Shown: positions 29,679 to 42,716 of the stretch, one piece after another
How positions within the stretch are numbered: the first letter of the stretch is position 1
Layout of the letters: the number at the start of each line of letters is the position of its first letter
From: Deltaproteobacteria bacterium
GTDB lineage: Bacteria; Desulfobacterota; Syntrophia; Syntrophales; Smithellaceae
Direction of reading: 5' to 3'
Length of the DNA stretch: 55,611 bases
Assembly: GCA_012729055.1 (NCBI GenBank)
Contig: JAAYDW010000008.1
Location: forward strand, 1-55,611
Program-made: the position numbers and the translations under genes
The notes under the pieces: generated by a model
What the model was told of the DNA's origin: nothing
The model's input: the letters and a program-made list of their open reading frames with translations, nothing else
Databases searched by the model: none

Positions 29679-30653
29679 ATGCAATTTCCTGAATACCGGG
29701 GACGCCGGTTGAGAAAGAACGGCACCTTCCGCAGGCTGGTGCGCGAAACGCGCCTGAGTGTGGACGAACTGGTTTATCCGCTTTTCGCCGTGCCGGGCAA
29801 GGATGTGAAAAAACCCATCGGGTCCATGCCGGGGCAGTTTCAGATGTCGGTGGACCAGATCGCGAAGGAAGCGCGCGAGGCTTATGCGCTGGGCATCCCC
29901 GCGCTTTTGCTTTTCGGCATTCCGGCCAGGAAGGATGAGCAGGGAACCGGGGCGTTTGCCAAAGACGGCATCGTCCAGCAGGCCGTGAAGCGCGTTAAGA
30001 ACGAAGTGCCGGACATGCTGGTGATCACGGACGTCTGCCTGTGCGAATACACGAGCCACGGCCACTGCGGCATCCTCGAAAAGGGCGAGGTGCAAAACGA
30101 CGCCACGCTCGAGGTGCTCGCGGAAACGGCGCTCTCGCAGGTGAAAGCCGGCGCGGACATGGTGGCGCCGTCGGCCATGATGGACGGACAAATCGCAGCC
30201 ATCCGGGAAATCCTCGATGAAAACGGCCTCGACAACATTCCGATCATGGCTTATTCTGCGAAATACGCCTCCTCGTTTTACGGGCCGTTTCGCGAGGCGG
30301 CTGAAAGCGCGCCGCAGTTCGGCGACCGCAAGGCCTATCAGATGGACCCGGCCAATTCCGACGAGGCCATCCGGGAAATCTCGCTCGATGTCAATGAAGG
30401 CGCGGACATCATCATGGTGAAGCCCGCGCTGCCGTACTTGGACATCATCTGCCGGGCCAAACAGGAATTCGATCTGCCGCTTGCCGCCTACAACGTGAGC
30501 GGAGAGTACGCGATCATCAAGGCCGCGGCGAAGCTGGGCTGGATCGACGAAGAAAAAGCCATGCTGGAGAGCGTCACGGCCATCAAGCGCGCCGGCGCGG
30601 ACATCATCATCACCTACTGGGCGAAAGATCTGGCGAAGGTGCTCGCGAAGTGA
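29679..30653 (+). CDS. hemB: Porphobilinogen synthase (delta-aminolevulinate dehydratase)
   Basis: 324 residues. Metal-site cysteines are in [15 protein letters not shown], the first Schiff-base Lys in [16 protein letters not shown], and the second in [13 protein letters not shown]. It condenses two aminolevulinates. AAGGAG precedes the ATG; the gene follows ahbC by three bases. Its end is followed by 366 bases of repeats. Confidence 0.97.
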
Positions 30654-30685
30654 AAAGTGGAGCGCGAAAAGACGTGCGGAAATTC

Positions 30686-30722
30686 CCCCTCCCCCCGCCC
30701 CTCCCACAAGGGGAGGGGAGAT
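30686..30722 (+). repeat. 37-bp direct repeat, left copy (palindromic CCCTCCC/GGGAGGGG type)
   Basis: This 37-base stretch is identical to 31373-31409. It is itself palindromic (CCCCTCCC..ACAA..GGGGAGGGG). Degenerate relatives follow at 30727-30755, 30770-30790 and 30980-31012. The 366 bases between hemB and the DUF559 frame consist almost wholly of these and the repeats at 30809-30950. Confidence 0.85.
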
Positions 30723-30808
30723 CAGTCCTCCCTTGATGGGAGAGGGTTAGGGTGAAGCTCCAGGAGACACCCCTCCCTTGACGGGAGAACAAAAGCGTTT
30801 TTTTTGTG

Positions 30809-30950
30809 TAGGGCGGACCTTCAGGTCCGCCTGGTGCGGGATTAAAGCCCGGCAGCTACAGGTGAATGGTGATATGTGCCTCAAAATGTAGGGCGAGCCT
30901 TGAGGGCCGCTATTGGCGGGGCTGAAGCCCCGCCCTACGAGAAACAGAGG
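30809..30950 (+). repeat. Two dispersed palindromic repeats (TGTAGGGCG type)
   Basis: Copies begin at 30809 and 30887. Each has TGTAGGGCG, a first stem (GCGGACC..GGTCCGC in the first copy) and a second stem around TAAAG or TGAAG, ending in a complement of the start such as GCCCTACGAGAAAC. The same family forms the tandem array at 42488-42690. Confidence 0.8.
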
Positions 30951-31019
30951 AGAGAAGGTTAGGGTGCAGAAAGTTCTGAGACTCCTCTCCCTTGAGGGGA
31001 GGGGCAGGGGTGAAATCTT

Positions 31020-31496
31020 TTGAAAAAAGAAAAAACCAATCTGACCCGATTGGCAAAAAACCTCAGAGCCAATTCAACAAATGCGGAACGATTATTATGG
31101 CAGCACCTCAGATCCAGACAGCTCGAAAGCACAAAGTTTCGCAGACAGCAACCGATCGGCGGTTACATTGTCGATTTTGTTTCATTTGAGGACAAATTGA
31201 TTGTTGAATTGGACAGGAGCCGGCACGCGGAGCATCAGGAAAGTGACCGACAGCGCGATCAATGGTTGACCTCTCAAGGCTTCAGGGTGTTGCGTTTTTG
31301 GAATAATGAAATATTAGGAAATATAGAAGGAGTTTTGGAATCGATTATGGAGCGTTTATCTCACTCCCCCAACCCCTCCCCCCGCCCCTCCCACAAGGGG
31401 AGGGGAGATGCTGATGATGCAACGGTCGTGGATGCGGATGTCCTGTCCCGCCCCTCTTCTAAAGGGCACGCGGTCCATGAGGGGAAGGGGAATGCC
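31020..31496 (+). CDS. DUF559 (Vsr-like endonuclease fold) reading frame, continuous with ahbD
   Basis: About 159 residues from a TTG at 31020; the frame has no stop of its own and continues into ahbD. Residues 10-110 match DUF559: LRANSTNAERLLWQHLRSRQ, KFRRQQPIGGYIVDFVSFE, LIVELDRSRHAEH (usual ELDGGQH, so two positions differ), FRVLRFWNNEIL. After residue 112 the protein is encoded by repeat DNA (PNPSPRPSHKGRG). The usual catalytic-type Asp and Glu remain. Its ribosome site GGAGGGG lies in a repeat. It may be an active mobile gene or a decaying insertion. Confidence 0.7.
31373..31409 (+). repeat. 37-bp direct repeat, right copy, inside the reading frame
   Basis: Identical to 30686-30722 and 687 bases downstream of it, in the same orientation. 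It encodes the SPRPSHKGRG-like peptide between DUF559 and AhbD. A degenerate second relative is at 31448-31490 and supplies GGGGAAGGGG in front of ahbD. Confidence 0.85.
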
Positions 31497-32528
31497 GTGC
31501 GCATGATCGCTTGGGAAGTGACGCGCAGCTGCAATCTCAGCTGTGTGCACTGCCGGGCCGCGTCGCATCTCGGTCCTTATCCGGGGGAGCTTTCCACCTC
31601 CGAATGTCTTAGCCTGATCGACGACATCGCGCGCTTTGCCAAGCCGGTCATCATTCTCACCGGCGGCGAGCCGCTTTTGCGGCCGGATATCTTCGACCTG
31701 GCCGCCTACGGCACGCAAAAGGGCCTGCGCATGGTCATGGCGACCAACGGCACACTGGTGGACCAGGCCGTCGCGCGCAAAATGATCGCCGGCGGCATTC
31801 AGCGGGTGAGCATCAGCATCGACGGGCCGGACGCGCCAACCCACGATGCGTTTCGCCAGCAGCCGGGCGCGTTTGCCGGCGCGCTCGCGGGCATCGAAGC
31901 CATGAAGGCCGCCGGTATGGAATTTCAGATCAATACGACGATCACAACCGCCAATCTGCATCAGATTAAAGAAATTCACGAGCTGGTCCTGAAAATCGGC
32001 GCGGCCGCGCATCACATCTTTTTGCTGGTGCCGACCGGGCGGGGCAGGGACCTGGCCGAGCAGGCGATCACCGCGGCGGACTACGAAGAGACGCTCCACT
32101 GGTTTTACCGGGAAAGCCTGACGTGCGAAATCCAGCTCAAGGCCACCTGCGCGCCGCACTATTTCCGGATTATGCATCAGAACAAACCCAAGGGGGCTAA
32201 GCCCGTCAAAAAAGCAGGCGGCCACTTTCATGAATCCACAAGAGGATGCCTGGGCGGCATCGCGTTTTGCTTTGTTTCGCATGTAGGCCAGGTGCAGCCC
32301 TGCGGCTACCTGGAGCTCGACTGCGGCAATGTGCGCAAGCAGCCCTTCGGCGAAATCTGGGAAACCTCCGAGGTGTTTAACAATCTTCGGGATTACGGCA
32401 AGTACACGGGCAAGTGCGGACGCTGCGAGTTCATCAAGGTCTGCGGCGGCTGCCGGGCCAGGGCCTACGAGGCCACCGGCGATTATCTCGCGGAAGAGCC
32501 GCTGTGTCTGTATGAACCGCGCCGTTGA
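31497..32528 (+). CDS. ahbD: AhbD-type heme synthase, radical SAM (Fe-coproporphyrin III decarboxylase)
   Basis: 343 residues from a GTG at 31497 (ATG two codons later at 31503), behind GGGGAAGGGG. MIAWEVTRSCNLSCVHCRAA carries the SAM cluster; ILTGGEPLLRPDIF and SISIDGPDAPTHDAFR follow. The C-terminal cluster motif is CGRCEFIKVCGGCRARAYEA. AhbD turns two propionates of Fe-coproporphyrin III into vinyls, giving heme. The upstream reading frame is open back to 31020, so a DUF559-AhbD fusion could be made if the ahbD start is not used; length and start agree with a separate AhbD. Confidence 0.9.
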   Translation: MRMIAWEVTRSCNLSCVHCRAASHLGPYPGELSTSECLSLIDDIARFAKPVIILTGGEPLLRPDIFDLAAYGTQKGLRMVMATNGTLVDQAVARKMIAGGIQRVSISIDGPDAPTHDAFRQQPGAFAGALAGIEAMKAAGMEFQINTTITTANLHQIKEIHELVLKIGAAAHHIFLLVPTGRGRDLAEQAITAADYEETLHWFYRESLTCEIQLKATCAPHYFRIMHQNKPKGAKPVKKAGGHFHESTRGCLGGIAFCFVSHVGQVQPCGYLELDCGNVRKQPFGEIWETSEVFNNLRDYGKYTGKCGRCEFIKVCGGCRARAYEATGDYLAEEPLCLYEPRR

Positions 32529-32548: not shown

Positions 32549-32584
32549 TTAACGGGATTCCGGCCTGCGCCGGAATGACGGAGT
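32549..32584 (+). repeat. Dispersed hairpin repeat (ATTCCGGC..GCCGGAAT type)
   Basis: GGGATTCCGGCCTGCGCCGGAATGACGG is a short palindrome of a class widespread in bacterial genomes. Here it fills the gap between ahbD and the decarboxylase gene, and its last bases contribute the GGAG ribosome site of that gene. Confidence 0.75.
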
Positions 32585-32591
32585 AAGTAGC

Positions 32592-42487: not shown

Positions 42488-42690
42488 TGTAGGGCGGACC
42501 GTGAGGTCCGCCATTGGCGGGTCTAAAGACCCGCCGTACGAGAAACGGGGCGATAAAACAAAAGTGTTGGTTGTGTAGGGCGAACCTTCAGGTTCGCCAT
42601 TGGCGGGTCTAAAGACCCGCCCTACGAGAAGCGGGGCGATAAAACAAAAGTGCTGGTTGTGTAGGGCGGACCTTCAGGTTCGCCTGCTGC
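42488..42690 (+). repeat. 86-bp tandem repeat, about 2.4 copies, built of palindromes
   Basis: Units begin at 42488, 42574 and 42660, spaced exactly 86 bases; the third is partial. Each holds the stem GGCGGACC..GGTCCGCC (or GCGAACC..GGTTCGC) and the stem GGCGGGTCT..AGACCCGCC, then GAGAAGCGGGGCGATAAAAC. It is the family of 30809-30950. It occupies the gap between mntP and ogt. Confidence 0.9.
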
Positions 42691-42716
42691 GGGGGACAAA
42701 CGGAAAGCGAGGTTTT

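Follow-up and report, generated by a model that had tools for sequence, protein, structure and literature searches.

A gene encoding a DUF559 protein lies among palindromic repeats between hemB and ahbD on contig JAAYDW010000008.1 of a Deltaproteobacteria bacterium of the family Smithellaceae (55,611 bp, the whole of which is referred to here as the window), and this arrangement raises the question of whether gene and repeats together form a mobile element. The original prediction was that the gene is bracketed by two identical 37 bp palindromic repeats in direct orientation. The two copies are indeed identical, on the same strand and 687 bp apart, degenerate relatives lie nearby (Table 1), and the gene between hemB and ahbD is a clear member of DUF559 (PF04480, 141.5 bits with a cut-off of 20.6, E = 1.2e-41). 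Palindromes do bracket DUF559, but the bracketing pair is inverted and not direct, with an upstream hairpin whose tail points rightward and a downstream hairpin whose tail points leftward, and the outermost 37 bp copy is an extra one. We propose that the locus probably represents a mobile unit of about 425 bp, in which a Vsr-like DUF559 nuclease of the PD-(D/E)XK fold acts on its own triplex-forming ends. The pairing of DUF559 with the repeats, which joins a known repeat class lacking a known mobiliser to a nuclease family of unknown function in a compact unit found at varying sites, is strongly supported by sequence comparison; movement of the unit and cleavage by DUF559 as the catalytic step are what we infer from it.

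Architecture and distribution of the DUF559 unit

DUF559 matches of at least 77 bits numbered 104. Of the 88 strongest we scored 81, and the 16 below these were left unscored; the seven skipped were on contigs already used (four), at a contig end (one), or left out (two). All 81 scored loci are from the window's phylum. Hairpins of the C/T type are present within 260 bp on both sides of DUF559 at 71 of these loci (66 in an earlier tally with other settings), compared with none of 30 Vsr loci, one of 30 GIY-YIG loci, and 2 of 359 positions lying 3, 5 and 7 kb off the same DUF559 loci. The control sets are the 30 best loci of each family, one per genome, with L164, L190, L205 and L211 shortened by contig ends. 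Exact 9 bp hairpins of this type occur within 100 bp of DUF559 at 5.6 per kb upstream and 6.2 per kb downstream, and at only 0.09 per kb at distances of 4–10 kb, a local excess of about 60-fold.

The plan that recurs in related genomes is a hairpin, a purine tail directed toward the gene, the DUF559 gene, and then the mirror arrangement. Both tails point clearly inward at 42 of the 81 loci, where the unit is 399–486 bp long with a median of 425.5 bp (interquartile range 417–443 bp). The direct 37 bp bracket was rejected as the unit, as the tails of the best-preserved relatives form an inverted pair spanning about 425 bp. The window's own unit is excluded from the 42, since both of its tails score 7/10 and the cut is 8. 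The DUF559 frame crosses the nearest downstream hairpin at 40 of the 81 loci, and it stays open for at least 250 codons at 11.

The tail mirrors the purine arm of its hairpin, with either A or T facing A. For the nearest hairpin at each of 151 flanks, the inward tail has a mirror score of 8.16 out of 10 compared with 5.25 for the outward side, and the inward score is the better one in 125 flanks, the worse in 19, and equal in seven. Shuffling the tails among flanks gives 6.88 (sd 0.09, with a maximum of 7.16 in 1000 shuffles), and reading the tail as a direct repeat gives 7.17. In 90 of the 110 tails that are clearly inward, the turn between hairpin and tail measures 3 nt, with TTA the commonest sequence. 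A hairpin with a mirror third-strand tail, the form of an intrastrand triplex, is thus found in the flank set, with the window's tails at 7/10 each. Because the tail mirrors the purine arm, the repeats appear to be of the known intrastrand-triplex kind (TM/BoxC/PIT; PMC4666352) rather than an undescribed class as originally supposed. According to the accessible text of PMC4666352, TM motifs were formerly called BoxC or PIT, the E. coli motif folds into a triplex in vitro (a result reported for E. coli and not for the window sequence), triplex repeats are tied to instability, no mobility gene lies by the E. coli copies, and the origin of the repeats is left open; the same text mentions neither DUF559 nor an endonuclease. 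Titles and abstracts in the literature gave no link of DUF559 to such repeats, with bioRxiv and most subscription journals outside the coverage. The repeats described here differ in having a candidate mobility partner, as they would be the ends of a DUF559 unit.

The association is also seen in other bacterial groups, consistent with the expectation that DUF559 genes would be palindrome-flanked elsewhere. Among 23 named loci from Deinococcota, Cyanobacteriota, Pseudomonadota, Bacillota, a Dehalococcoidales and an Uhrbacteria genome, C/T-type hairpins are on both sides in 14; this sample took in 18 plasmid records, out of 41 that matched, and all five loci given by a protein search, and is neither random nor corrected for kinship. 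The DUF559 gene of E. coli K-12 is ycjD, and a BoxC copy lies 168 bp downstream of it, a proximity expected by chance at about 0.4% with 23 copies in the genome (the figure given in the accessible text of PMC4666352). The ycjD region is covered in 3362 of 5426 E. coli genomes. One ycjD-less genome, LF82, was rejected as a clean insertion site, as an efflux operon is present there and the difference is read as loss of eef; eefRABCD stands at the place of ycjD in other E. coli lineages (PMC12817139, accessible part).

Distinct DUF559 genes carry distinct palindrome types, even within one genome, with end types such as GGGAGAGGG and AAAGGGGGG. A palindrome signature was usable at 71 of the 81 loci, and over these the correlation of protein identity with palindrome similarity (Mantel r 0.43) lies far above the maximum of 2000 permutations (0.098), although the loci are mutually related and the permutations do not give strict probabilities. 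Palindrome similarity is 0.665 for pairs within the same genome (n = 32) and 0.678 for pairs from different genomes, and the palindrome of the nearest protein elsewhere is a better match than the mean same-genome paralogue in 30 of 37 comparisons, worse in four, and tied in three. Palindrome type tracks nuclease lineage, not host genome.

Copy numbers of the palindromes are likewise associated with the nuclease, as had been predicted. Among the 297 genomes sampled, 107 gave a DUF559 match, and of these the 64 with matches of at least 77 bits are taken as genomes with DUF559 and the 43 with weaker matches are counted as without. Pattern a is present in 49 of the 64 DUF559 genomes and 57 of the 233 others, and pattern b in 37 and 38 respectively; when DUF559 labels were permuted within 23 families, the observed value was reached in none of 5000 permutations for either pattern. 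Even with three copies subtracted per DUF559 match, repeats remain in 40/64 compared with 66/233 genomes (p = 4e-9). The flanks could be typed in 54 of the 64 genomes, and copy number follows the flank type: pattern b has a median of 21 copies where DUF559 is flanked by the b type (n = 18) and 0 with other flanks (n = 36), and pattern a a median of 5 with a-type flanks (n = 33) and 1 otherwise (n = 21; p = 0.004).

Occupied sites, empty sites and DUF559 within genes

It had been suggested that empty sites should be sought between hemB and ahbD. This spacer did not provide a clean one, and the sister genome G067 was rejected because its region is a run of N. Within other families the hemB–ahbD spacer is 32–193 bp at 19 of 23 loci and 246–435 bp at the other four; in the related genome G030 the spacer holds a DUF559 unit of its own, and G130 instead has a GIY-YIG gene between ATTCCGGC-type repeats. 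Empty sites were found in the hutU–hutH spacer in the genus of G237, where two genomes are occupied (463 bp in G237 and 448 bp in G350), and four have neither the unit nor a C/G hairpin (41 bp in G215, 131 bp in G351, 29 bp in G007, and 138 bp in G045). The genus is represented by ten genomes including G237, and of the other four, one has the two genes on different contigs and three gave no usable match. At these sites the unit appears as one block, either gained or lost, and the empty sites are palindrome-free. Two of the empty spacers (L278 and L279, of G215 and G351) contain another short repeat, TGGAATATTGGAATRCTGGAAT-like and unrelated to the hairpins.

DUF559 is also found inside genes. 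It lies in frame within a methylase gene at L049 and within a Pseudanabaena gene of 1621 residues that encodes an Eco57I methylase domain, and a split Synechocystis methylase gene also holds it. The DUF559 in the methylase gene at L055 has one stop upstream and an open frame downstream, and the joined flanks match four one-piece homologues with 35–39% identity and some 15–22 extra residues. In the Picosynechococcus homologue this linker lacks DUF559 but holds two C/G hairpins, the only ones in the gene. In-frame hairpins, with or without DUF559, were seen in DUF1156 and other methylase genes (L049, L055, L239 on Picosynechococcus PCC 7002 pAQ6, L240 and L241), which may reflect a preference for methylase genes. 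Because the repeats are frequently free of stop codons, units can sit in frame within or before genes, and in the window the DUF559 frame runs on into ahbD.

On Deinococcus plasmids DUF559 is at differing places around the hpa genes, and two genes that share a 4 bp overlap in D. proteolyticus are parted by DUF559 in Deinococcus strain NW-56. Sinorhizobium meliloti Ak57 (L244) was rejected as an empty site, as DUF559 is half-deleted there, beside smc, with the deletion ending at the downstream palindrome.

The nuclease, its proposed action and the alternatives

The core residues D31173, E31206, D31212 and H31224 (numbered by window position), which are conserved in 99–100% of the 81 loci, are kept in the window. 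A structural model built from a five-sequence alignment (mean pLDDT 84.8) has as its best matches in the Protein Data Bank a Neisseria DUF559 protein (3hrl) and then the homing endonuclease I-Bth0305I (3r3p; Foldseek E 2.1e-05, TM-score 0.66 over the query), with Vsr (1cw0) at rank 8. YcjD has been assigned to the PD-(D/E)XK superfamily, and its profile matches Vsr (PMC1189080, accessible part). The frame containing the window's DUF559 (502 aa) has no match to Vsr (PF03852) at E 0.001, such that the likeness is in fold only, and none to Y1_Tnp at the same threshold; DUF559, radical SAM and related models do match it.

Enzymes of the PD-(D/E)XK class only hydrolyse DNA and form no covalent intermediate, and because of this, copying of the unit would need host repair or replication. 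A plausible course is that the C-rich and G-rich arms form a hairpin, followed by a 3 nt turn, with the purine tail lying on the purine arm as a third strand; DUF559 would recognise this end of its own unit in single-stranded DNA, as in replication or repair, and nick beside it, and the copying would fall to host repair and replication. New sites would then acquire whole units, and lone ends would build up as dispersed repeats, just as lone REPs (repetitive extragenic palindromes) accumulate around RAYTs (REP-associated tyrosine transposases).

The likeness to RAYT/TnpA-REP and REPIN systems lies in a small nuclease gene between inverted palindromes, in the many lone copies, and in a palindrome type that follows the protein; as in those systems, the palindromes flanking the gene have copies elsewhere in the genome. 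RAYTs are Y1 HUH enzymes, whereas DUF559 is PD-(D/E)XK, and the DUF559 palindrome has a possible triplex-forming mirror tail. By analogy the unit would share RAYT/REP logic without being a member, its enzyme being unrelated. Vsr (1cw0, 1vsr) is of the same fold family, but none of the 30 Vsr genes of the phylum has a flanking hairpin pair. Rickettsia palindromic elements are in-frame palindromes within coding genes, as seen here, but we know of no nuclease partner for them, while the DUF559 unit has one. The partner nuclease offers a testable protein for the question of how such repeats spread; E. coli K-12 encodes a homologue (ycjD), and the structure of a DUF559 protein has been solved (3hrl). 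If our reading is true, DUF559 would have a concrete role, and REP-like elements would have arisen with an enzyme unrelated to RAYTs.

A rather unlikely alternative is homing, in which DUF559, as a Vsr-like endonuclease, would enter palindromes that exist and spread independently and be copied into them by repair of its cut. The fold match to I-Bth0305I, second among solved structures, is in its favour, as is the presence of triplex repeats in genomes without a strong DUF559 match. I-Bth0305I has no palindromic ends that we know of, and insertion into pre-existing palindromes fits poorly with the four resolved hutU–hutH sites, which lack a C/G hairpin, with the tight unit length, and with the tendency of same-genome paralogues to bear the palindromes of their own protein lineage. 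We consider it very improbable that host Y1 (RAYT-type) transposases spread the palindromes with DUF559 only a passenger, even though 212 of 297 genomes contain Y1_Tnp matches, whose number is correlated with that of the repeat copies. DUF559 is itself no Y1 protein, both repeat patterns occur in G030, a genome with two DUF559 genes but without a Y1 match, and repeats are found in 6 of 11 genomes with DUF559 and without Y1, compared with 55 of 159 with the reverse combination. Hairpins beside genes are common and the arms are of low complexity, as a chance or compositional origin from GC-rich intergenic hairpins or terminators beside a small gene would have it. The probability of this is negligible, given the roughly 60-fold local excess, the near-zero Vsr and GIY-YIG controls, the covariation of mirror tail and hairpin, and an Rfam search of 30500–31600 in which no match reached its gathering score and all were far below.

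A host function is also quite improbable, by which a Vsr-like DUF559 nuclease for repair or for clearing structures is kept by break-prone triplex repeats, the linkage being selected and immobile. The instability of triplex repeats (PMC4666352, accessible text) would suit this explanation, as would the links reported for a DUF559 protein of Caulobacter with cytosine methylation and with DNA damage (PMC12907096, accessible part) and the constancy of DUF559 at one site in seven Azospirillum plasmids. Against it, nothing would require a repair enzyme acting in trans to be enclosed by two copies a set distance apart, or to match its own flanking palindromes in type, and one site is occupied or empty within a single genus.

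Several observations weigh against the mobile DUF559 unit that we prefer. The evidence is wholly comparative, with no excision, insertion or cleavage seen, and a target duplication was not apparent by eye in the printed hutU–hutH junctions, where the relatives are too divergent. At the 260 bp setting a hairpin is missing from one or both sides in 10 of the 81 loci, and two clear inward tails are found in only the 42 loci described above, with two having both tails outward, four mixed, and the others unclear or without a hairpin. Composition-blind alignment of the flanks, a weaker test than that for hairpins, gives a higher mean for direct (24.1) than for inverted (19.5) similarity, with 30 inverted and 21 direct cases above the 95% level among 80 loci; because direct similarity is also found, extra direct copies like the 37 bp pair of the window are common around DUF559. 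Among the named loci of other groups, 9 of 23 are without a full hairpin pair, four of them having a hairpin on neither side (L232, L233, L234 and L237), four Deinococcus loci have outward tails as judged by eye, and the tail of the BoxC copy by E. coli ycjD also points outward. The seven Azospirillum plasmid records spanning the query, its own among them, all have DUF559 at a single site; no empty site was found, and units can therefore be long-lived. Abundance of the repeats in genomes without DUF559, which the original prediction named as a refutation, is seen in part, in the 57 of 233 genomes with pattern a and in 15 of the 38 genomes with at least 20 repeat copies, where no strong match to the nuclease is present. 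Repeat copies correlate with Y1 transposases (partial correlation 0.33) as well as with DUF559 (0.46). Loss or incomplete assembly of DUF559 genes, or the action of a different mobiliser, could account for the 15 genomes and for the Y1 correlation. The Caulobacter DUF559 protein is reportedly linked in function to a cytosine methyltransferase (PMC12907096, accessible part). Lastly, the window has Arg at 31215 where 99% of the 81 loci have Gly, and with its degenerate tails this copy may be decaying or inactive.

Features of the window and other palindromes

The hairpin core, allowing up to three mismatches, has seven strand-matches in the window, whereas 100 dinucleotide shuffles average 0.04 and never exceed 2. 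The genome has a single DUF559 match and 21 strand-matches to the core palindrome at the same stringency, compared with three for a reversed-pattern control. The DUF559 locus of the window accounts for three of the sites, and near-perfect copies (0 or 1 mismatch) outside it are on contigs C74, C11 and C36. From the TTG start at 31020 the DUF559 frame meets no stop ahead of ahbD, giving a single 502-aa open frame through the downstream palindrome.

Table 1. Positions of the repeats, the DUF559 gene and its neighbours in the window.
Feature	Position	Strand	Comment
Putative whole unit	30982–31409	+	428 bp; hairpin, inward tail, DUF559, inward tail, hairpin, following the plan of relatives
Upstream hairpin	30984–31004	+	CCTCTCCC-TTGA-GGGGAGGGG; degenerate, one mismatch to the core
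Inward purine tail of upstream hairpin	31005–31013	+	CAGGGGTGA; degenerate, 7/10 triplex matches (script's pairing)
DUF559 part of gene	31020–31373	+	TTG start; PF04480 domain 31038–31358; frame open into ahbD
Inward tail of downstream hairpin	31365–31384	-	minus-strand reading; 7/10 triplex matches (script's pairing)
Downstream hairpin core	31385–31405	-	CCCCTCCC-ACAA-GGGGAGGGG; within second 37 bp copy
Second 37 bp copy	31373–31409		contains downstream hairpin core
Outer, extra 37 bp copy	30686–30722	+	identical to 31373–31409; cluster member outside the putative unit
Additional hairpin	30728–30757	+	degenerate relative (30728–30742), then GGGTTAGGGTGAAG (canonical third-strand motif) pointing right
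Additional degenerate hairpin	30773–30787	+	same hairpin family
hemB	29679–30653	+	porphobilinogen synthase; neighbour on the other side
ahbD	31500–32528	+	heme b synthase (TIGR04545); neighbour in the DUF559 reading frame

A PADLOC search gave only a marginal DpdF match, which was not used. A second interspersed palindromic family (TGTAGGGCGGACC...GGTCCGCC / GGCGGG...CCCGCCCTACG) is located at 30807–30938 and 42488–42706, with a near tandem pair 86 bp apart and copies also within the DUF559 repeat cluster.

GIY-YIG genes between inverted copies of other palindromes (GTCATTCCGGCGAAAGCCGGAATCCAG; CACCGTTCACCCTGAGGCTCTCGAAGGGTGA) were observed at L133 (the hemB–ahbD locus of G130), L193, L201, L202, L213 and L217, and may possibly constitute a second nuclease–repeat pair. 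Flank similarity exceeds the 95% level at 8 of 28 GIY-YIG loci in inverted and 9 of 28 in direct orientation, compared with 0 and 3 of 30 Vsr loci, and a literature search found no paper on the GIY-YIG–repeat pair. We offer tentatively, as a generalisation that may well be wrong, that several abundant bacterial palindromic repeats are the ends of minimal units of about 400 bp, each with one hydrolytic nuclease and its own repeat type, such as DUF559 with triplex repeats and some GIY-YIG with GTCATTCCGGCGAAAGCCGGAATCCAG and CACCGTTCACCCTGAGGCTCTCGAAGGGTGA. The nuclease would read the folded end and not a linear site, and host repair would make the copies without transposase chemistry. Directly 3' of ahbD, at 32549–32586 in the window, there is a GGGATTCCGGCC-TGCGCCGGAATGACGG palindrome that resembles the flanks of the GIY-YIG gene of G130.
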